A DNA stretch of 44,888 nucleotides, taken from positions 1-44,888 of the forward strand of contig JAFIHG010000048.1 of assembly GCA_017848795.1 (NCBI GenBank). Direction: 5' to 3'. Under the pieces are notes generated by a model, which worked only from the letters and a program-made list of their open reading frames with translations, was not told where the DNA came from and did not search any database. The translations under genes and the position numbers were made by a program. This DNA comes from Candidatus Nanopelagicales bacterium. Its GTDB lineage: Bacteria > Actinomycetota > Actinomycetes > S36-B12 > CAIYMF01. This document shows positions 2,412-44,850 of the stretch, piece after piece (the first letter of the stretch is position 1; each line of letters starts with the position of its first letter).

Positions 2412-3842
2412 ATGAGCGACGGGCACGCCGCACGCCGTGCCTCTCCCGCACGCGCCGCGGCCGCCGCGCTGCTCTCGGCGCTCGTGCCGGGCCTCGGCCA
2501 GCTGCTCGCCCGCCGTCCCGCGCGCGCCGTGGGATTCCTGCTGTTCTCGGCCGCGCTGCTCGCGGTGGCGGGCTGGCTGGCGCTCTCCGGGCGCACCCAC
2601 GTGCTGGCGCTGCTGGTGCAGCCCGCCTGGCTGACCGCGGCGCTCGCCGTGGTCGTGGTGAGCGCGCTGGTGCGGCTGGCCGCGGCGTACGACGCGTACC
2701 GGCTGGTGCGGCCCCTCACCGCGCCGCCGGCGGCAGCCGCCCTGGCCGGTGGGCTCGTGCTCGGGCTCGTCGCGGCGCTGGTCGTGGTGCCGCACGCGTA
2801 CGCCGCGCGGATCGCCTGGACGCAGCGCGACCTGGTCACCGACGTCTTCCCGGTGGCCGAGCCGGCACCGGTCGAGCCGGACCTGGTCCTGCCGGCGCCG
2901 ACAACGACGCCGTTGCCCACACGCGCCAGCACGCCCACCCCCACCCCGACGCCCACGCCGACGCCCACGAGCTGGGGCCGCGACGGGCGCTACACCGTGC
3001 TGCTGCTCGGCGCGGACGCCGGCCCGGGCCGGTGGTCGGCGCGCACCGACACCATGGTGCTGCTGAGCATCTCCCCGCAGGACGGCTCCGCGGTGATGAT
3101 CGGGGTGCCGCGCAACCTGGCGCGCATCCCGTTCGTACGCGGGCCGCTGCACGCCCGGTTCCCCAACGGGTTCACCGACATCGCCAACGCGGTCTACACC
3201 TACGGCGCCGGGCACCCCGAACTGTTCCCGGGCGTGCGCGACCCGGGTGCGACCGCCGTCGAGCACGCGCTCGCCGCCGCCACCGGCCTGGAGATCGACA
3301 ACTGGGTGATGGTGGATCTGGCGGGCGTCGTCGGGGTCGTACGCGCCCTGGGCGGGCTGACCCTCGACGTGCCGACCGCGCTGCACGACCGGATCTCGCC
3401 GTACCAGCCCGGCGGTCCCTGGGTCGAGGCGTGGATCCCGGCCGGGCGCCAGCACCTGAGCCCCGATCAGGTCTACGTCTACGTCCGCTCCCGGCACGCC
3501 GACAGCGACTACTTCCGGATGCGCCGCCAGCGCTGCGTGCTGGCGGCGATCGGCGAGACGCTGACCGGGCCCGCGCTGCTCAAGTCCTACCCGGACCTCG
3601 CCAAGGCCCTCACCCGCAGCGTGACGACCGACATCCCGCGGTCCCGGCTGCCGGACCTGGTCGAGCTCGGCGCGAAGGTGCGGCTGAACCGGGTGAGCAC
3701 GCTGCTGCTCGTACCGCCCCTGGTGAACACCAGCTACCCGGACTACGCGCGGATCCGCCAGGTCGTACGGGACGCGCTCGCCGGCTCGCTACCCGCGGGC
3801 CTGGGCGTCGCCGCGAACCGCATCACGGGTGCCTGCAGCTGA
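2412..3842 (+). CDS. LytR-CpsA-Psr (LCP) family protein with polytopic N-terminus
   Basis: 476 aa from ATG 2412, preceded by AGGGAGGGA at a good distance. LCP proteins transfer undecaprenyl-linked glycopolymers to peptidoglycan outside the cell membrane. Residues 15-130 hold about four hydrophobic segments and a PGLGQLL motif like small TM proteins of the DUF5683 type, unlike the usual single-TM LCP anchor. A Thr/Pro spacer (about 163-187, alternating PT) leads to the LCP domain from about 193: YTVLLLGAD, the Asp/Arg segment RTDTMVLLS and GVPRNL, where many LCPs have PRD. The tail overlaps the convergent tetR gene by 54 bp. A polymer substrate cannot be assigned. Confidence 0.88.
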   Translation: MSDGHAARRASPARAAAAALLSALVPGLGQLLARRPARAVGFLLFSAALLAVAGWLALSGRTHVLALLVQPAWLTAALAVVVVSALVRLAAAYDAYRLVRPLTAPPAAAALAGGLVLGLVAALVVVPHAYAARIAWTQRDLVTDVFPVAEPAPVEPDLVLPAPTTTPLPTRASTPTPTPTPTPTPTSWGRDGRYTVLLLGADAGPGRWSARTDTMVLLSISPQDGSAVMIGVPRNLARIPFVRGPLHARFPNGFTDIANAVYTYGAGHPELFPGVRDPGATAVEHALAAATGLEIDNWVMVDLAGVVGVVRALGGLTLDVPTALHDRISPYQPGGPWVEAWIPAGRQHLSPDQVYVYVRSRHADSDYFRMRRQRCVLAAIGETLTGPALLKSYPDLAKALTRSVTTDIPRSRLPDLVELGAKVRLNRVSTLLLVPPLVNTSYPDYARIRQVVRDALAGSLPAGLGVAANRITGACS

Positions 3843-4448
3843 GCGCAGCTCGGCCGGGTCGACGCCCACCTCGGCCGCCGCGGCGTCCAGCCACAGCTCG
3901 TTCATCCGCGCCGCCGACACGTCCGGGTCGCCCAGCTCCACCTGCACCGCGAGCCCGTCGAGCAGCGAGGCGAGGCGCAGCACCGCGGCCTGCGGGTCCG
4001 CGCAGCGGAAGCTGCCGTCGGCGACGCCGGCGTCGATCGTGGCGCGCAGCGTCTCGCGCCAGCGCACGTCGAGGCTGCGGCGCAGCTCGGCGGCCTGCGG
4101 GTCGCGCAGCGCGCGTACCCACACCTCCATCCAGAGCGTCCAGTCGCCGACCGACGGGCCGGAGCCGGTGCCCAGCCGGGCGAGCTCGCCCAGCCGCGCG
4201 GTCGGGGACGGGGCGCCGTCCGGGACCAGGTCGGAGTAGAACGCGTCCTCGACGCTCGCGAGCGCAGCGGCCAGCGCGCCGTCCAGGGACTTGAAGTGGT
4301 AGACGACGAGGGCCGGCGAGGTGCCCGCGGCGGCGGCGACGTCGGCGATCCGCGCCCCCGCGAACCCCTTGTCCACCAGCACCTGCACCGCGGCCGCGAT
4401 GATCCGGCGCCGACGTTCCTCGGGCGCCTTGGCAGACAGTGTGCTCAT
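3789..4448 (-). CDS. TetR family transcriptional regulator
   Basis: 219 aa. The N-terminal HTH (about 15-60) includes RIADVAAAAGTSPALVVYHF, a standard TetR recognition helix; the C-terminal ligand domain resembles BetI-type regulators. The gene is divergent from an acyl-CoA dehydrogenase gene, with an operator-like palindrome about 30 bp upstream of its own start, so autoregulation and control of the neighbour are likely. A second operator copy lies in front of the aminotransferase gene. Its 3' end overlaps the convergent LCP gene (3789-3842). The effector is unknown; an acyl-CoA is a reasonable guess from context. Confidence 0.92.
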   Translation of the reverse strand: MSTLSAKAPEERRRRIIAAAVQVLVDKGFAGARIADVAAAAGTSPALVVYHFKSLDGALAAALASVEDAFYSDLVPDGAPSPTARLGELARLGTGSGPSVGDWTLWMEVWVRALRDPQAAELRRSLDVRWRETLRATIDAGVADGSFRCADPQAAVLRLASLLDGLAVQVELGDPDVSAARMNELWLDAAAAEVGVDPAELRSAAGTRDAVRGDAQARG

Positions 4449-8477: not shown

Positions 8478-8564
8478 GCTCCGACGCTAGAGCGATCCGC
8501 CGCTCGGATGGGTCGCCCGTCCACAGCCCCGCTTACGCCTCGGGTCGCCTCGGCCTGTACGAGA

Positions 8565-8988
8565 TGGCGGGCGTACGCGGGGTATAGCTCACGCGCACCC
8601 GCCAACAGGGTGCGTCCTCGGGAGTGGCGGGCGTACGCGGTGTATATCCCGCGGTGACCCGCCAACCCGAGCATGCGTCGGGAGTGGCGGGCGTACGCGG
8701 GGTATAGCCGGCGCTCACCCGCCAACCGGAGCAGCACCACGGGCCCTTCGGGCCGCCCTGGAGGGTGGAAAATCCGGCTGCGCTCGCGGCCACCCAGCGT
8801 ACGGCCCGCCTATTTTCGACTCAGGTCTCGGGAGTGGCGGGCGTACGCGGGGTATAGCTCACGCTGACCCGCCGATCTGGTCAGGCTCGCGGGGTGGCGG
8901 GCGTATGCCGGGTAGGGCTCACGCACACCCGCCAACCAGGTGCGCCCCAAGGAATGGCGGGCGTACGCGGTGTATAGCCCACGCGCAC
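8565..8988. repeat. Hairpin repeat array 2, six units, truncating a sigma gene
   Basis: Units of the same family and orientation as array 1 start at 8565, 8625, 8685, 8835, 8895 and 8955. The period is 60 bp except for an extra 90 bp between units 3 and 4, where a 99-bp element (8727-8825) is inserted. The last unit lacks its closing CCCGCCA arm and runs straight into coding sequence of an ECF sigma gene at about 8989. Bases 8478-8564, between the SAF gene start and the first unit, hold nothing I recognise. Confidence 0.92.
8727..8825 (-). repeat. 99-bp interspersed element, copy 1 (inside array 2)
   Basis: The sequence from CGGAGCAGCACC to TTTTCGACTCAGG is the reverse complement, with few differences, of 44440-44538. 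It contains a GGGCCCTTCGGGCC hairpin. It replaces a 20-bp linker of array 2, so it looks like an insertion into an existing array. Confidence 0.88.
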
Positions 8989-9152
8989 AGCGAGGCGCGG
9001 CCCTCGAACTCGGCGTACGAGCGCCACGCTCGCAGGTAGGTCTCCTGCACCAGGTCCTCGGCGTCCTGGACCGAACCCATCATGCGGTAGCAGTGCGCGA
9101 GCAGCTCGCGACGGTACGGGTCGGTCAGCTCGGTGAAGTCTTCGTTTGCCAT
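8919..9152 (-). pseudogene. ECF sigma-70 factor, truncated by repeat array
   Basis: The open frame from ATG 9152 begins with a clear ECF sigma region 2: LTDPYRRELLAHCYRMMGS, then VQDAEDLVQETYLRAWRSY and AEFEGRASL. After Leu, at about base 8989, the frame enters the hairpin array and the remaining 20 or so residues are translated repeat. Region 4 and most of the protein are missing; related factors are roughly 180-330 aa, here 77. Nothing resembling the missing part lies beyond the array. The start has a good AGGAG-like site, and palindrome A sits in the leader. A functional sigma factor is not expected. Confidence 0.88.
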
Positions 9153-9165
9153 GCCTCTCCTTCCG

Positions 9166-9228
9166 GGTTCCGGATGAATGTGGCAGGACTCCGCTCTAAG
9201 TGGAGTCCTGCCACATTCATCCGGAACC
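9166..9228. repeat. Palindrome family A, copy 1 (63 bp, 27-bp perfect arms)
   Basis: Left arm 9166-9192 and right arm 9202-9228 are perfect inverted repeats around a 9-nt loop. The arm contains TCCGGATGAATGTGGCAGGA, shared exactly with the copy at 30662-30718. The tip next to the loop differs (ACTCC here) yet is still fully paired. The element supplies the last residues and stop codon of the VOC gene and lies just upstream of the sigma fragment, where it could also act as a terminator. Confidence 0.93.
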
Positions 9229-15135: not shown

Positions 15136-17637
<2,502 letters not shown>

Positions 17638-17643
17638 CGGGCT

Positions 17644-17664
17644 CGCGGTCGGCGCCCGACCGCG
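17644..17664 (+). terminator. Rho-independent-type terminator of clpC
   Basis: CGCGGTCGG / CCGACCGCG form a perfect 9-bp stem with a 3-nt loop, 7 bp after the clpC stop and followed by GATTTC. It has the right position and strength, although the T-tract is short, as is usual in high-GC actinobacteria. Confidence 0.75.
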
Positions 17665-17669
17665 GATTT

Positions 17670-17778
17670 CATGATCGGGAGAACGAAACCGTAGTCGAAC
17701 CGGGGTGATCCACCGGCTGTGCCGCACGCACGGCGGGCGATCGGCCGGGAAGGTTACGCGTTCGTTCTCCCGATCATG
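17670..17778. mobile_element. Palindromic element C, copy 1 (109 bp)
   Basis: It begins CATGATCGGGAGAACGAA and ends with the exact reverse complement, giving 18-bp terminal inverted repeats; the interior continues GTAGTCGAACCGG. A related element of 111 bp with the same termini lies at 18792-18902. It has no coding capacity and resembles a MITE. The next gene starts 78 bp further on. Confidence 0.85.
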
Positions 17779-17855
17779 GTTCCGGGTCGTCCACAGCTCC
17801 GCCAGGTGTTCGCCGATCCACAGCGGAGCGTCCGGTCCGGCCGCCGGCCGGTCCG

Positions 17856-18798
17856 GTGGCGCACGCTGCGCTCGTGGAACGGGACGGGCCCGAACTGGCG
17901 CGCCGGGGTGAACTGCGCGCTCGTGGAGTGAGCGCATGGCGTGAGGCGCGGCTGGTCCGGACCGGGGAGTGGTCCCGGGTCTACGGCGACGTCGTAGCGG
18001 CCGGCCCGGCGGACGCCGAGGATGTGGTGCGCGCCGCGTTGCTCGCCGCTGCGCCGGACGTCGCGCTCACCGCCGAGAGCGGAGCCCAGCTCTGGCTGGA
18101 CCGGACGCTGTCCTTCCCAGTCCAGCTGGCCGTCCCGCACGGCCGCCGATTCCCCGAGACGGCGCAGGTCCGGTTCCACCAGCTGCGCGAGTGGATACCT
18201 CCGGTGCGCTACCGCGACCTGCCCGTGCACCCGCCCGCGAAGGTCGCCGCCGCCGTCGCCGCCGGTACCGCGCGGGAGGCCGACCGGCGGGCGCTGGTGA
18301 CCGCCCTGGTGCAGCGCGGCCTGACCACCGCGGGTGAGGTCGCCGCTGCCGCGGGCCGAACGCCACGACGGGTCCGCGGCCAGGTCCGCCGGCTGGTCGA
18401 GGAGGTGCTGGCCGGGGCCCATTCCGGCCCGGAGGCCGCGCTGTGGCGGCACATCGTGGAGGCACGGCTGCCGGTACCGGTGCTGAACCACCCGCTGCGC
18501 GGCGGCGCGCGCAGCCTCGACGGGTACCTCGCGCAGCTGGACGCGGGCTACGAGGTCCAGAGCACTACCCATCACGCCGGGACCTGGCGGGAGGACACCC
18601 GCCGGTTGTCCGAGATCGCTGGTCAGCGACGGGATCGTGCTGCTGCTGATCATGGTGGAGGACATCGAGCGACGCCCCGACTCGGTGCTGCGGGATCTGG
18701 AGGGGTTCTGGCGCAACCGGGCTGCCGAGCTCCATCGCCCGTACCCGCGCTTCGTGGCACCGCCGCAGTGGCGCCCGGCTGGTGGGCCGCAACCATGA
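17856..18798 (+). pseudogene. AbiEi-like HTH / DUF559 (Vsr-fold) protein, frameshifted
   Basis: From GTG 17856 (or GTG 17874, VERDGPELARR). The N-terminal part has the Arg/Trp-rich winged-helix segment REARLVRTGEWSRVYGDVV typical of AbiEi-type antitoxin domains; the middle has AGAHSGPEAALWRHIVE; the C-terminal part has SLDGYLAQLDAGYEVQSTTHH, matching the degenerate nuclease fold of DUF559/Vsr proteins. After RRLSEIAG (about 18615-18630) homology moves by one frame to LVSDGIVLLLIMVEDIERRP and on to a stop at 18796-18798 that overlaps element C copy 2. A single indel has broken the gene, or the sequence has an error. The nuclease-like residues also look eroded. It is bracketed by two copies of element C. 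Confidence 0.72.
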
Positions 18799-18902
18799 TC
18801 AGGAGAACGAGAACGTAGTCGGTCGACGAGATATCGGTCGAATCCGGGGTCCGCGGCGTGGGTGCCGCCGGTTCGACTACGCGTTCGTTCTCCCGATCAT
18901 GG
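18792..18902. mobile_element. Palindromic element C, copy 2 (111 bp)
   Basis: The left end ACCATGATCAGGAGAACGA and the right end (reverse complement ACCATGATCGGGAGAACGA) are near-perfect inverted repeats. The right arm continues with CGCGTAGTCGAACCGG, matching the interior of copy 1. Its left end provides the stop codon of the frameshifted gene. Confidence 0.85.
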
Positions 18903-18941
18903 TCAAGGCGCGTGGTCGACCCGCTGGCCACGCTCTGAGAC

Positions 18942-19016
18942 CCGACGTCACTGTCCTGGTGGCGGTGTACGGGCCGTTTCGGGCCGGATTCTCCACCACC
19001 AGGACAGTGACGTCGG
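18942..19016. repeat. Palindrome family D, copy 1 (75 bp, 21-bp perfect arms)
   Basis: Arms 18942-18962 and 18996-19016 are perfect inverted repeats (CCGACGTCACTGTCCTGG side) around a 33-nt loop with its own GGGCCG/CGGCCC-like pairing. It ends 4 bp from the mutY stop and may terminate mutY. CAGTGACGTCGGTAG recurs at 35231-35245 in a second, weaker palindrome. Confidence 0.9.
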
Positions 19017-19020
19017 TAGG

Positions 19021-19893
19021 TCAGCGGGGGAGGGCGTACGTGCCGTCGGGCAGCGGGTCGGCCAGGCCGTCGGCGACCAGGCCGTCGAGGGCGCGGGCGC
19101 GCTGCGCGGCGTCGGGCCACACCGCGTCGAGGCGCGCGGCCGGTACCGGGTGCTCGCTGGTGCGCAGCTCGGCCAGCAGCAGGCCGCGGACCTGACGGTC
19201 GGTCCCGGCGAACCGCTGCGGGCGCCGGCGCGGACCGTCGTACGCCGGCCGGCCCGCGAGCCGCCACTCGCATCGGGACGCGACCGGGCAGGACCCGCAC
19301 GCCGGGTTCCTGGCCGTGCACACCAGCGCACCGAGCTCCATCACCGCCGCCGCCCACTGCGCGGCCGCGGCGTCGTCCTGCGGCGCGAGCGCGTCCGCCG
19401 CGGCGCGCTCGCCGACCGTCACCGACGGGCCGGGTGCCGCTCGGCCGTGGAGCACCCGGGCGAGCACCCGGCGCACGTTGGTGTCGAGCACGACCGCGCG
19501 ACGGCCGTACGCGAACGCGAGCACCGCGGACGCCGTGTAGTCGCCGACCCCGGGCAGCGCGCGTAGCGCCTGATACGTGTCGGGGACCTGCCCGCCGTGC
19601 TCGGCGACGCAGGCCCGCGCCGCGGCGGCCAGCCACAGCGCCCGCCGCGGGTACCCGAGCCGGCCCCAGGCGCGGATGACCTCGTCCGCCGGCGCAGCGG
19701 CGAGGGCCGCCGGCCGCGGCCACCGCGTCACCCAGTCCCGCCACACCGGCAGCACCCGGGCGACCGGGGTCTGCGCGAGCATCACCTCGGAGACCAGCAC
19801 CCCCCAGGGCGTACGGTCCGCCGCCCGCCACGGCAGGTCGCGGGCGTGCCGGGCGTACCAGTCGAGCACCGCGGGTACGAGGGGAGCGAGCAC
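19021..19893 (-). CDS. mutY: A/G-specific adenine glycosylase MutY
   Basis: 290 aa from GTG 19893, the start nearest the conserved N-terminus (LVPAVLDWYARHARDLPWR). MutY removes A mispaired with 8-oxoG. It has the catalytic Glu in SEVMLAQTPV, the helix-hairpin-helix LPGVGDYTASAVLAFAYG followed by the catalytic Asp in VVLDTNVRRVLAR, and a 4Fe-4S cluster spaced C-x6-C-x2-C-x5-C (CTARNPACGSCPVASRC). The C-terminus is short, without a full MutT-like 8-oxoG recognition domain, as is common in actinobacteria. The gene is divergent from an exported protein gene 58 bp away. Confidence 0.94.
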   Translation of the reverse strand: MLAPLVPAVLDWYARHARDLPWRAADRTPWGVLVSEVMLAQTPVARVLPVWRDWVTRWPRPAALAAAPADEVIRAWGRLGYPRRALWLAAAARACVAEHGGQVPDTYQALRALPGVGDYTASAVLAFAYGRRAVVLDTNVRRVLARVLHGRAAPGPSVTVGERAAADALAPQDDAAAAQWAAAVMELGALVCTARNPACGSCPVASRCEWRLAGRPAYDGPRRRPQRFAGTDRQVRGLLLAELRTSEHPVPAARLDAVWPDAAQRARALDGLVADGLADPLPDGTYALPR

Positions 19894-19951
19894 CGCCGCA
19901 GTACAGCAGGAACGCGCCACGCCCGCGGCGGCGGCCGGTAGCGTTCGCCCG

Positions 19952-20638
19952 GTGAGCAGCGTCATCCGCCCGGTCGGCCCGCAGCCGCCCGCCGTGTACT
20001 GGGTACGGCGGGTGGTCACGCTCGTCGTGCTGGCGGCGGTGGTCGCCGGTGTCGTCTGGTTCCTCGGCGGCCGCGGCAGCGGCGACCCCGGCCCGGACGG
20101 CGCCGCCCCCGCCACCTCGATGACGCCCGGCCCGACCCGTACCAGCACCCCGACCACCAGCACGAGCCCCACGCCCACCAAGACCCGTACCAAGGCGCCC
20201 GACACGTCGCCGACGACGACCACCTCGCCGAGCCGCTCCGGCACCCACGTCGCAGCCTGCCGCGACAAGGACATCAAGGTGACCGCGTCCACGGACGCCG
20301 CGACCTACCGGGTCGGTGACACCCCGGCGCTGCGGATGCGGATCACCAACGTGTCGGACACGTCCTGCCGGCGCGACGTCGGCTCGGCGCCCAACGAGCT
20401 GATCGTGAACAAGGGCACCACGCGCTTCTGGTCCAGCGACGACTGCAACCCGCGCGGTACGTCCGACGTGGTCGTGCTCGCGCCCGGGCAGGCGTACTCG
20501 GTCAGTCTCACCTGGCTCGGCGAGGGCTCCTCACGCGGCTGCCCGGCCGACCCGCCGGAGGCGGACGCCGGCTCGTACAGCCTCGTCGGGCGCAACGGCG
20601 ACGTGCTCTCCGCCCCCGCCCGGTTCTCGCTGACCTGA
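19952..20638 (+). CDS. Membrane-anchored extracytoplasmic protein, unknown function
   Basis: 228 aa from GTG 19952. One TM segment (about 20-40, VVTLVVLAAVVAGVVWFLGG) is followed by a Ser/Thr/Pro linker of about 55 residues, which probably spans the cell wall. The outer domain (about 95-228) looks like a beta-sandwich: YRVGDTPALRMRITNVSDTSC, RFWSSDDCN and APGQAYSVSLTWLGE. Its four Cys suggest disulfides. It resembles small actinobacterial domains of the DUF4232 or BsuPI type, but I cannot assign one. It is divergent from mutY and precedes the cheBRW promoter. Confidence 0.72.
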   Translation: MSSVIRPVGPQPPAVYWVRRVVTLVVLAAVVAGVVWFLGGRGSGDPGPDGAAPATSMTPGPTRTSTPTTSTSPTPTKTRTKAPDTSPTTTTSPSRSGTHVAACRDKDIKVTASTDAATYRVGDTPALRMRITNVSDTSCRRDVGSAPNELIVNKGTTRFWSSDDCNPRGTSDVVVLAPGQAYSVSLTWLGEGSSRGCPADPPEADAGSYSLVGRNGDVLSAPARFSLT

Positions 20639-23308: not shown

Positions 23309-23766
23309 TCGACGGTTACGTGATGTTCGAGGTGGGCGCGACGACCTTCGCGGTCGCCGTCGTCTCGGTACGGGAGGTGCTGCGCGTCTCGGACGTGCAG
23401 CTGCTGCCCAGCAGCGAGCGCACCGTCGCCGGCCGCGAGCTGGCGCTCGTGGACGCCCGCGGACGCGCCGTACCGGTGCTCGACCTGCGCCGAGACGCGG
23501 ACCTGGCGGGGGACGTGCTGCTCGCACGGGAGGACGACCGCGCCGGACTGGTCGTCGACCGCGTGACGGCGGTCGTACGACCGGGCGAGCTCAGCGCCGA
23601 GACCGCGCCCGAGCTCGCGTTGCCGTCGTACGCGGTGGGGCTGTTGCGCCCTGCCGATGGCGGCCCGCCGGTGCTGCTCGTCACGCTGCCCGCCGTCGCG
23701 TCCGCCACCGACGAGCCGGACCGCTCCGAGCCGGCGCTGGGCGAACCGGTCCTGCACGCGGGCTGA
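23305..23766 (+). CDS. cheW: CheW-like coupling protein
   Basis: 153 aa from ATG 23305, overlapping cheR by ATGA with GGAAGGAGG upstream. CheW bridges chemoreceptors and the CheA kinase. The fold is visible as YVMFEVGATTFAVAVVSVREVLR at the start, LALVDARGRAVPVLDLR in the middle and DRAGLVVDRVTAVVRPGEL later. It is the last gene of the operon, followed by 37 bp and hairpin array 3. Its sequence is more divergent than typical CheW, with a short acidic C-terminal extension. Confidence 0.9.
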   Translation: MIDGYVMFEVGATTFAVAVVSVREVLRVSDVQLLPSSERTVAGRELALVDARGRAVPVLDLRRDADLAGDVLLAREDDRAGLVVDRVTAVVRPGELSAETAPELALPSYAVGLLRPADGGPPVLLVTLPAVASATDEPDRSEPALGEPVLHAG

Positions 23767-23803
23767 GCGACCGCGGGACCCGGCCAGCCGGCCCGACCGG
23801 TGT

Positions 23804-24383
23804 TGGCGGGTCAGTGCGGGGTTTACCTGCCGTACGCCCGCCACTCCTGGGGCGGACTGGTGTTGGCGGGTCAGCGTGGGGTTTACCTGCCGTACGCCCG
23901 CCATTCCTGGGGTCGTCGGGTGTTGGCGGGTCAGTGCGGGGTTTACCTGCCGTACGCCCGCCATTCCTGGGGTCGTCGGGTGTTGGCGGGCCAGCGGGGG
24001 GGTTTAGCTCCCGTACGCCCGCCATTCCTGGGGCCGACGGGTGTTGGCGGGTCAGCGCGGGGTATATCCCCCGTACGCCCGCCATTCTCGGGGCCGACCG
24101 GTGTTGGCGGGTCAGCGTGGGGTTTACCTGCCGTACGCCCGCCATCCCTGGGACGGCCGGTGTTGGCGGGTCAGCGCGGGGTTTAGCCCCCGTACGCCCG
24201 CCACTCATGGGCCGACGGGTGTTGGCGGGTCAGTGCGGGGTTTAGCCCCCGTACGCCCGCCACTCACGGGCCGACTGGTGTTGGCGGGTCAGCGTGGGGT
24301 TTACCTGCCGTACACCCGCCATTCCTGGGGTCGTCGGTGTTAGCGGGCCAGCGCGGGGTCTGCAGGCTGCGTACGCCCGCCGA
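23804..24383. repeat. Hairpin repeat array 3, about ten units, inverted
   Basis: Units open with TGGCGGGTCAG and close with GTACGCCCGCCA about 40 bp later, i.e. the reverse complement of arrays 1 and 2. They start at 23804, 23864, 23924, 23984, 24045, 24105, 24164, 24223, 24282 and 24341; spacing is 59-61 bp. The core is GGGGTTTACCTG or GGGGTTTAGCCC rather than GGGTATAG, so this array has its own homogenised variant. The last unit is degenerate. It fills the whole gap between the converging cheW and disA genes. Confidence 0.93.
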
Positions 24384-24399
24384 TCACGTCCCTGCCGGT

Positions 24400-29691: not shown

Positions 29692-32105
29692 CGGCCGACG
29701 CGGTGCAGGACGCGCCGGCCATCACCGGGCTCACCGCCGAGCAGGTCGCCGAGCGGGTGGCGGCCGGTCAGACCAACGTCGTACCGGACACGCACTCGCG
29801 CAGCTTCGCGAGCATCCTGCGCGCCAACACGCTCACCTACTTCAACCTGCTGATCGGCGTGCTGTGGGTGCTGATGCTGCTGTCGGCACCGCTGATCGAC
29901 TCGCTGTTCGGGTTGGTGATCGTCGTCAACACCGGCATCGGCGTGTTCCAGGAGTGGCGTGCGGCGCGCACGCTCGCCCGGCTCTCGGTGATCGGGCAGG
30001 TGCGGCCCACGGTGCGCCGCGACGGCCGCGAGGTCGAGGTGGCGCCGGCGGAGCTGGTCCTCGACGACGTCGTGGTGCTGCGGTTGGGCGACCAGCTGCT
30101 CGTCGACGGCGAGGTGCTGGCGAGCGACGGGCTGGAGATCGACGAGTCGCTGCTTACCGGCGAGGCCGACCCGGTGGGCAAGACCGCCGGTGACGAGGCG
30201 ATGTCCGGGTCGTTCGTCGTCGCCGGCGGCGGCGTGATGCGCGCGACGAAGGTGGGCCGCGACTCGTACGCCGCCGGGCTCGCCGAGCAGGCCCGCCAGT
30301 TCTCCACCACCCGCTCGGAGCTGGCCGGCTCGATCCAGCGCTTCATCCGGCTGGTGTCGTACGCGCTGGTGCCCATCGGCGTGCTGCTGTTCGTCTCGCA
30401 GTTCCGCACCAACGACGGGCGGATCCGCGACGCCATCGCCGGCACGGTGCCCGGGGTCGTGACGATGGTGCCCGAGGGGCTGGTGCTGCTCACCTCGATC
30501 GCGATGGCTGTCAGCGTGATCCGGCTGGCCCGTAAGCGCGCGCTCGTACAGGAGATGCCCGCGGTCGAGGTGCTCGCCCGGGTGGACGTGGTGTGCGTGG
30601 ACAAGACCGGCACGCTGACGGCGCCGGGCATGCACCTGCGCGAGGTCGTCCCGCTGTCCGATCCGGATGAATGTGGCAGGAGTCCGTCAAGAACGGACTC
30701 CTGCCACATTCATCCGGAACTGGAGGAGGTGCTGGGGGCGATCGCGGCGGCCGAGCCGGACCCGAACCCGACGTTGGCGGCGATCGCCGAGGCGTACCCC
30801 GACGGGGGATCCTGGCGGCTGGACGACGCGGTGCCGTTCTCGAGCGCGCGCAAGTGGTCCGCCGCGACGTTCGAGGAGCACGGCTCGTACGTCATCGGCG
30901 CCCCCGAGCTGCTGCTCGCCGCCGACGACCCGGTACGCGAGCGCGCCGACGGGTACGCGGGCGGCGGCGCACGGGTGCTGCTGCTCGCCTCCTCCGCCGA
31001 CCGGCCCTCGGTGGCGGACGGCCCGGGACGGCTCACCCCGCTCGCGCTGCTCGTCATCGACCAGCAGCTGCGCCACGACGCGGCCGACACCGTGCAGTAC
31101 TTCCAGGACCAGGGCGTCACCGTCAAGGTGATCTCCGGGGACAACCCGGTCACCGTGGGCGCGATCGCCAAGGCCGCCGGCATCCCGCAGTCCGGCCCGC
31201 CGGTCGACGCCCGCGAGCTGCCCGAGGACGACGCCGCGCTCGAGGCGGCCGTGGACGGGTCGCACGTCTTCGGCCGGGTGACCCCGGCGCAGAAGCGGGC
31301 GATGGTCGGCGCGTTGCAGCGCCGCGGCCACACCGTCGCGATGACCGGCGACGGCGTCAACGACGTGCTCGCCCTCAAGGACGCCGACCTCGGCATCGCG
31401 ATGGGCTCCGGCGCCGGCGCGACCCGCGCCGTGGCGCAGATCGTGTTGCTGGACGACCAGTTCTCGGTCATGCCCTCGGTCGTCGCCGAGGGCCGCCGGG
31501 TCCTGGGCAACATCGAGCGGGTGTCGGACCTCTACCTGACCAAGAGCTTCTACGCGATGGTCGTCTCGGTCACCACGGTGCTGCTGCAGGTCCCGTTCCC
31601 GTTCCTGAACCGGCACCTGACCCTCGTCACCGCGTTCACCATCGGCATCCCCTCGTTCTTCCTCGCGCTGATGCCGAACACCGAGCGGTTCCGCAAGGGT
31701 TTCTTCAAGCGGGTCGTCGTCTTCGCGCTGCCGGCCGGCGTGACGTGCGCGCTGTCGGCGTACGCCTCGTACGGGCTCGCGCTCGCCGCCGGCAGCGACA
31801 CCGCGATGGCGCGGGCCTGTGCGTCGTACACCCTGTTCGTCGTCGCCTGGTGGGTCCTCGTGCTGGTCGCCCGGCCGTGGAGCCCGCTGCGCATCCTGAT
31901 CTGCCTGGCCATGGTCGCCGGGTTCGCGGGCGTGGTGCTGATCCCGTTCCTCAACCGGCTGTTCTCGCTGAACGTCGGCGCGGACCGCACCGCGCTGCTC
32001 GCCCTCGGCGTCGGGGTCGTCGGTGCCGCCGTCGTCACGGTCGTACGGCTCGCGGTACGCCGCTGGCGCGACCCGGTCCCGGCCGGCTTCACCCGGATCA
32101 CCTGA
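29688..32105 (+). CDS. CtpE-like cation-transporting P-type ATPase with in-frame palindrome
   Basis: 805 aa from GTG 29688, overlapping the Ppx stop. A P-type pump, most like mycobacterial CtpE (calcium uptake reported). Features: [18 protein letters not shown] start, actuator [13 protein letters not shown]4 motif [11 protein letters not shown], phosphorylation site DKTGTLT (D305), [12 protein letters not shown] and [12 protein letters not shown] in the N/P domains, [24 protein letters not shown], and about ten TM segments. Residues about 325-344 ([19 protein letters not shown]) are encoded by palindrome A copy 2, inserted in frame 20 residues after DKTGTLT where homologues have a short variable loop, so the pump may still work. 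It is followed by a TIM-barrel gene with TGATG overlap. Confidence 0.93.
30662..30718. repeat. Palindrome family A, copy 2 (57 bp), inside the ATPase gene
   Basis: Perfect 26-bp arms (30662-30687 and 30693-30718) around CAAGA. The outer 20 bp TCCGGATGAATGTGGCAGGA is identical to copy 1 at 9168-9187; the tip is GTCCGT/ACGGAC instead of CTCC/GGAG and is still fully paired. The length, 19 codons, keeps the reading frame and no stop arises in the coding frame. It adds two Cys and two His to the ATPase cytoplasmic domain. Confidence 0.95.
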
Positions 32106-44222: not shown

Positions 44223-44850
44223 ATCTGCTCCGAAAGAGCGGACGCAACCACTCGGTGGTCGAGCGTAGTCGAGACCATGATCGACGTGGTCTGGACTGCG
44301 CTCGACCACCGCGTGCTCGCCCGGTCTTTCACACGCCGCCGGGCGCGCCACCTGGCCCAAAGTGACTCGACTGCGCTCGACCACCGCGTGCTCGCCCGGT
44401 CTTTCACACGCCGCCGGGCGCGCCGCCAGTCCCAAAGTGCCTGAGTCGAAAATGGCCGGGCCGTACGCTGGGTGGCCGCGACCGCAGCCGGATTTTCCAC
44501 CGTCCAGGGCGGCCCGAAGGGCCCGGGGTGCTGCTCCGAAAGAGCAGACGCAACCAGCCGTTGGTCGAGCGTAGTCGAGACCATGATCACCGCGGTGGTC
44601 TCGACTGCGCGCGACCACCGGGTACTCGCCCGGTCTTTCACGCGCCGACCGGCGCGCCACCAGGCCCAACGTGACTCGACTGCGCTCGCCCACCGAGTAC
44701 TGGCCCGGCCTGTCCCGCGCCGACGGGCGCCGCCAGCCCCAAAGTGTCTCAGACGGAGCCAACCCTGCGGCACCCTGGAGTGCCCGCGACCGCAGCCAGA
44801 GTCTCCACCGTCCAGGGCGGACCGAAAGGCCCCGTGCTACTGCCCGCAAG
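44223..44850. repeat. Composite repeat block, two units of about 310 bp
   Basis: Both units begin CTGCTCCGAAAGAGC (44223 and 44531), then carry GTCGAGCGTAGTCGAGACCA facing its inverse (CGACTGCGCTCGACCAC) and the CTCGCCCGGTCTTTCACAC-type segment. That segment is repeated twice in unit 1 (from about 44296 and 44374). Each unit ends with the 99-bp element (intact in unit 1, eroded at about 44744-44850). The GTCGAG...CTCGAC palindrome is a common type in actinobacterial genomes. Nothing coding is supported in 44167-44888. The window stops within the block. Confidence 0.88.
44440..44538 (+). repeat. 99-bp interspersed element, copy 2
   Basis: It starts CCTGAGTCGAAAAT and ends GGGGTGCTGCTCCG; by eye it is over 90% identical to the reverse complement of 8727-8825. 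It carries CCCGAAGGGCCC as an internal hairpin. A third, eroded copy follows at about 44744-44850. No reading frame is conserved. Confidence 0.9.

Follow-up and report, generated by a model that had tools for sequence, protein, structure and literature searches.

The locus considered here lies in a window of 44,888 nucleotides (the whole stretch of DNA that was analyzed) from a Candidatus Nanopelagicales bacterium, and it raises the question of why a single AbiEi/DUF559-type gene is enclosed by two related palindromes between clpC (15136..17637, forward strand) and a convergent gene that we take to be mutY, encoding an A/G-specific glycosylase (19021..20292, reverse strand, open reading frame as listed with the true start probably further in). 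The original prediction had described the block as a composite MITE cassette, with two related elements at 17670-17778 and 18792-18902 that share their termini, a frameshifted gene between them and a second element that overlaps the stop codon of this gene. The structural part of this description holds. Element 1 is a 109-bp imperfect palindrome located exactly at 17670..17778 (termini CATGATCGGGAGAACGA and TCGTTCTCCCGATCATG), and element 2 is a 108-bp imperfect palindrome of the same family whose limits were corrected to 18794..18901. Both elements begin with CATGATC(G/A)GGAGAACGA and finish with the reverse complement of that terminus, and DNA folding gave z-scores of -5.6 for element 1 and -6.8 for element 2 (none of 200 shuffles folded equally well). 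The gene consists of a main open frame (17856..18617, forward strand, 72% identity to an intact protein of a congener) and a remainder in another frame (18619..18798, forward strand) that ends at the TGA at 18796-18798, inside element 2. Since the intact congener protein (368 amino acids, genome G001) aligns with 17883-18617 and, after a change of frame, with 18619-18795, a single real frameshift is placed near position 18617. The start of the gene is uncertain: the first GTG in the main frame is at 17856, and an ATG at 17776-17778, inside element 1, belongs to a different frame. An Rfam search of 17000-19700 returned no match at E ≤ 1.

The organization of this site was compared with that in related genomes. 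Of the 17 other genomes that yielded clpC, 12 have it next to the convergent mutY, with gaps of 1-797 bp versus 1383 bp in the window; in the other five, mutY was either not found in the stretch examined or not in convergent orientation. No AbiEi-type gene was matched in the clpC-mutY interval of any of the 12 relatives, which agrees with a cassette, and no relative was found to carry the gene at this position without the elements. The congener copy is located elsewhere, downstream of a gene that we read as threonine-aldolase-like, and is itself bracketed, and the clpC-mutY gap of the congener contains what is presumably an acetyltransferase-like gene. At the orthologous site of the congener cassette in the genome of the window (G000, C17:9751) there is no cassette, and a solo hairpin of the TTCCGGATGAATG family overlaps the end of the presumed threonine-aldolase-like gene. 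The cassette sites in the two congeners are reciprocally empty. For hairpins that stand alone, a comparison of two close congeners (G004 and G007) covered four copies from another family. Only one of these is clearly missing from the aligned site; one is common to both genomes, one persists as a remnant and one lies at a rearranged site, and a fifth copy has no counterpart.

Solo copies of the window palindrome, which had also been predicted, were found in its own genome. The 17-mer of the terminus (≤3 mismatches) occurs at 29 places, versus two for a reversed control pattern. We could assign these places to eight complete hairpins (104-109 bp), to an inside-out pair on C29 and to a half element on C32; all others are scattered weak matches. 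When the eight hairpins are aligned, the outer 20 bases on each side are 84% identical on average and the interiors 40%, that is, unalignable. For the six complete hairpins outside the window, no AbiEi-type gene was matched in the surrounding stretches examined. The flanks of the eight elements show no target duplication beyond the CATG ends and no alignable empty junction, because the intergenic flanks are too diverged for either to be read. Across 59 further genomes drawn from the genus, family and order of this bacterium, the terminus gave only six isolated places with one mismatch, which were read as chance, and viral contigs gave no match to the window protein and 15 single matches to the terminus pattern. 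By eye, termini paired inside out with a spacer of about 41 bp are seen at 4136-4210 of locus L039 (C29) and around 3240-3306 of locus L040 (C32).

A first contig scan with the window protein as query yielded no relative. The congener homologue (72% amino acid identity) and a paralogue on contig C16 of the window's own genome (56% amino acid identity) occupy two further loci, and both genes lie between hairpins (tips TGATCGGGAG and TGATCGGAAGCA), an observation that led to a systematic test of bracketing. A locus was counted as bracketed if an ungapped word scoring at least 18 (match +1, mismatch -3) was common to its upstream and downstream flanks. The first set was drawn from 48 DUF559 matches, spread over 23 of the 40 related genomes searched; 40 of these matches were fetched, and 36 loci had both flanks; L166, L167, L172 and L175 were left out because of short flanks, and among the three loci that look less typical of the set (L158, L166 and L168) L158 and L168 were kept in the count. 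Such a word was present in 21 of the 36 DUF559-hit loci and in none of 30 distal flank pairs. An earlier version of this test used a mismatched-pair control, the top of which is raised by related cassettes from sister genomes. The second set comprised 80 named actinobacterial loci from a profile search (at least five shared with the first set), two of which were dropped for short flanks; here 35 of 78 loci passed but none of the 69 distal and 400 mismatched pairs, and at a softer threshold of 15 the counts were 42/78, 0/69 and 8/400, respectively. The homologues that remain below the threshold (15/36 in the first set, 43/78 in the second) reflect either decay or a lack of bracketing. The score misses the window-family cassettes L115 and L116 (flank score 10) because only their short arms are conserved, and these were recognized by the hairpin search and by eye. 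At L167/L111 (G006:C97), a DUF559 gene lies amid several short repeats of the CGCACGTTCCCGGC type, an array in place of single hairpins.

The words common to the two flanks are mostly hairpins or hairpin halves, as judged by eye, and differ for each gene. Overall, the gene family is associated with bracketing by gene-specific palindromes, and since members of this family are enclosed by one different palindrome after another, the gene appears to be the partner of the palindromes and not their cargo. Among the 35 positive loci of the second set, palindrome similarity tracks protein similarity (Spearman rho 0.41, 0 of 2000 permutations), a correlation that would also follow from plain vertical descent. 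Within the window's own genome, all seven AbiEi/DUF559-type genes examined (the window and contigs C16, C21, C29, C46, C2 and C49) are bracketed, each by a sequence of its own, the bracketing on C49 being weak (a 22-nt common word only). A weak eighth candidate lies on C9, where three half-sites of the GTCACTGTCCTGGTGG family stand in tandem (L337, G000:C9:46386-46484) next to a weak match of AbiEi type.

Further hairpin families are represented in the window by solo copies. A hairpin of a second family (CCGACGTCACTGTCCTGGTGG) at 18942..19016 belongs to a population of 31 half-sites in the genome, and the DUF559 gene on C29 lies between two of these. A third family (TTCCGGATGAATGTGGCAGGA) is present at 9168..9226 and again at 30661..30719, and it served as a blind test, having been picked from the window before any gene was in view. 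It has 57 half-sites in the genome (control, 0), and two intervals between copies are shorter than 1.2 kb, one on C21 and one on C18. The C21 interval contains exactly one long plausible open reading frame, encoding a 331-amino-acid AbiEi/DUF559 protein with an AbiEi_4 match and a weak DUF559 match, both below the Pfam cut-offs. The close pair on C18 (TTCCGGATGAATG type; L280, G000:C18:209589-210515) brackets no AbiEi-type gene and encloses an open reading frame that we take to be methyltransferase-like, which represents either chance or cargo. Wider third-family pairs on C41, C54 and C57 have no AbiEi-type gene between them. A second blind test, with the abundant GGTCGAGCGTAGTCGAGACC hairpin (window 44225-44740, 277 half-sites genome-wide at ≤3 mismatches), found no AbiEi/DUF559 gene in the 30 loci examined; these hairpins are possibly the same kind of repeat. 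The window also contains arrays of units of about 60 bp (GTGGCGGGCGTACGCGGGGTATAG...) in both orientations with inverted-repeat-like ends (38-833, 8500-8990 and 23731-24385), and a 99-bp stretch between array units (8727-8825) has a 95% identical inverted copy 36 kb away at 44440-44538. The contig starts with a perfect 71-nt inverted repeat whose arms adjoin directly (1-142), which may be an assembly-end artefact.

The domain structure of the protein was modeled for one bracketed member (L192) from 37 aligned homologues that include bracketed and unbracketed ones (pLDDT 94.9). Residues 5-191 of the predicted fold superpose on the AbiEi antitoxin 6y8q (Z 11.5, 175 aligned residues, rmsd 5.2) and more poorly on Rv2827c (1zel, Z 7.6). 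Residues 193-299 superpose on 3hrl (Z 13.7), the homing endonuclease I-Bth0305I (3r3p, Z 13.3, 95 aligned, rmsd 2.2) and Vsr (1cw0, Z 11.4, 100 aligned, rmsd 2.3; 1vsr, Z 10.6). The prediction thus places an AbiEi-type fold at the N terminus and a Vsr/homing-type (DUF559) nuclease domain after it, the latter with a fold known from homing and mismatch-nicking enzymes. In agreement with the model, Pfam (E ≤ 0.01) matched DUF559 in 37, AbiEi_4 in 33 and Vsr in one of the 37 homologues. Scores for the NCBIfam vsr model lie far below its cut-off. A Y1 transposase match was absent from the 37 homologues (E ≤ 0.01), from six other proteins (E ≤ 1) and from two intact window-family proteins (E ≤ 10). 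The window-family protein itself has no Pfam or NCBIfam match; it shows weak AbiEi matches in PADLOC and aligns to the homologue profile over nearly its full length (hhalign probability 98%). An invariant D in the nuclease motif of the aligned homologues is replaced by Q in the proteins of the window family, and the nuclease activity of this family may be changed; together with the frameshift, this substitution means that the window copy may be inactive. A DUF559 protein of Caulobacter, VsrA, is described as Vsr-like and responsible for an SOS response (PMC12907096).

Taken together, the block at 17670-18901 is probably one copy, frameshifted by now, of a mobile repeat system with two parts, an AbiEi-Vsr (DUF559) protein and a cognate palindrome mobilized in trans, similar to REPIN/RAYT but with no RAYT (Y1) transposase. 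An alternative that we consider unlikely is that the palindromes are operators and not mobile DNA, with the AbiEi-type protein binding upstream for autoregulation, once downstream, and at a regulon elsewhere. The upstream copies do sit just before the gene, and AbiEi and Rv2827c bind inverted repeats at the promoters upstream of their own genes (PMC7319586). Operators alone would not account for downstream copies in the same families, for tens of copies per family or for hairpins whose presence varies between congeners. Furthermore, in one family 13 of 22 hairpins, solo and bracketing ones taken together, have a stop codon within 16 bp and are not at promoters (based on a crude rule for open reading frames, with four hairpins flagged as possibly inside one), and the stems are long, near-perfect and made of covarying pairs. 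Across 23 hairpins and 27 stem pairs of the third family, changes on both sides occur at nine pairs, compared with 2.2 in column shuffles (0 of 500 as high) and at most two when the partners are slid, and this covariation shows selection for pairing in the hairpin stems. The position at stop codons would suit a second, distinctly less probable alternative, strong terminator-like stem-loops at gene ends that spread by recombination or duplication and protect or insulate the gene, from which gene-specific arms on both sides of a gene and solo populations of the same arms would be unexpected.

About equally improbable is a selfish homing-type nuclease, which would cut solo palindromes so that repair from the cassette copies the gene in between two palindromes. 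The match of the C-terminal domain to I-Bth0305I and the frequent location of the gene between two sites agree with such a nuclease, but it leaves the spread of the palindromes themselves unexplained, and only one cassette per family was found among the families examined in the window's own genome. The composite MITE of the original prediction, in which two insertions of a palindrome belonging to an unrelated transposase trapped the gene by chance, is the least probable of all: paired palindromes around one gene, copies that stand alone and the C18 pair around an unrelated open reading frame are as it would have them, but a captured passenger does not fit the repeated occurrence of one gene family between palindromes of different sequence, nor a blindly chosen hairpin that led to an AbiEi/DUF559 gene, and the loci examined contained no transposase gene whose ends match.

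For the two-part mobile repeat system, the following mechanism is proposed. The N-terminal AbiEi-type fold probably reads the cognate inverted repeat, each protein being paired with a palindrome sequence of its own; the protein would bind the palindrome arms and nick or cut at the element or at a target, and repair or replication would copy the palindrome to a new site and, rarely, the whole palindrome-gene-palindrome cassette. Gene-less copies would in this way reach intergenic sites, in many cases immediately at stop codons, and would form the solo populations, which in the window's own genome amount to eight hairpins for the window family, 57 half-sites for the third family and 31 half-sites for the second. 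Binding, cleavage and movement of the hairpin by the protein are inferred. The recurring bracketing by gene-specific palindromes suggests an undescribed kind of mobile repeat system; in the open-access literature (exclusive of subscription papers and preprints), titles and the beginnings of abstracts reveal no link of DUF559, AbiEi or Vsr to such repeats. DUF559 and AbiEi-like genes are usually interpreted as repair, antitoxin or defence genes. The chances are about even that AbiEi-Vsr (DUF559) proteins generally form a second class of palindrome-mobilizing enzyme, unrelated to the RAYTs, in which each protein propagates and sustains a hairpin family of its own; many genes that carry the annotation "AbiEi antitoxin" or "DUF559" would then encode enzymes of mobile DNA, and many intergenic hairpin repeats of actinobacterial genomes might be explained. 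Should every such gene come with a palindrome family of its own, a function would be assigned to a large group of "unknown" nucleases and an origin to a class of intergenic hairpins, and REPIN-like biology would have arisen also around an enzyme of unrelated type. The predicted DNA substrate can be read from each cassette, so that the proposal is open to testing for every protein in turn.

Several known systems share parts of this organization. MITEs and composite transposons likewise consist of short inverted-repeat elements in solo and paired copies, but here the palindromes are gene-specific and lie on both sides of one gene family, and neither a DDE transposase nor a target duplication was identified. 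The homing endonuclease I-Bth0305I has the same catalytic-domain fold (3r3p, Z 13.3), whereas no intron host is seen here and two full palindromes flank the gene. Vsr and DUF559 endonucleases share the fold of the C-terminal domain (1cw0, 1vsr; DUF559 Pfam match in 37/37), but the nuclease described here is joined to an AbiEi-type domain within one protein and its gene lies between palindromes, and the neighbors of the window gene are clpC and mutY and not a cytosine methyltransferase. The antitoxins of the AbiE type IV toxin-antitoxin system share the fold of the N-terminal two-thirds (6y8q; AbiEi_4 in 33/37), and AbiEi reads inverted repeats (PMC7319586), but the protein described here has an additional nuclease domain, and between the palindromes of the window cassette there is one gene alone, an AbiEii toxin gene being absent. 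The closest working parallel is REPIN/RAYT (TnpA-REP), in which one distinctive gene per repeat family adjoins its repeats, solo repeats are present elsewhere and gene and repeat co-diverge (PMC3116915). Likewise, the loci studied here have one protein gene per palindrome family with palindromes adjoining the gene (21/36 and 35/78), larger extragenic solo populations of paired inverted repeats and a gene and repeat that diverge together. They differ in that a palindrome is located on both sides of the gene and in that the protein has predicted AbiEi and Vsr-like folds and no Y1 (HUH) match, and is therefore not a RAYT.
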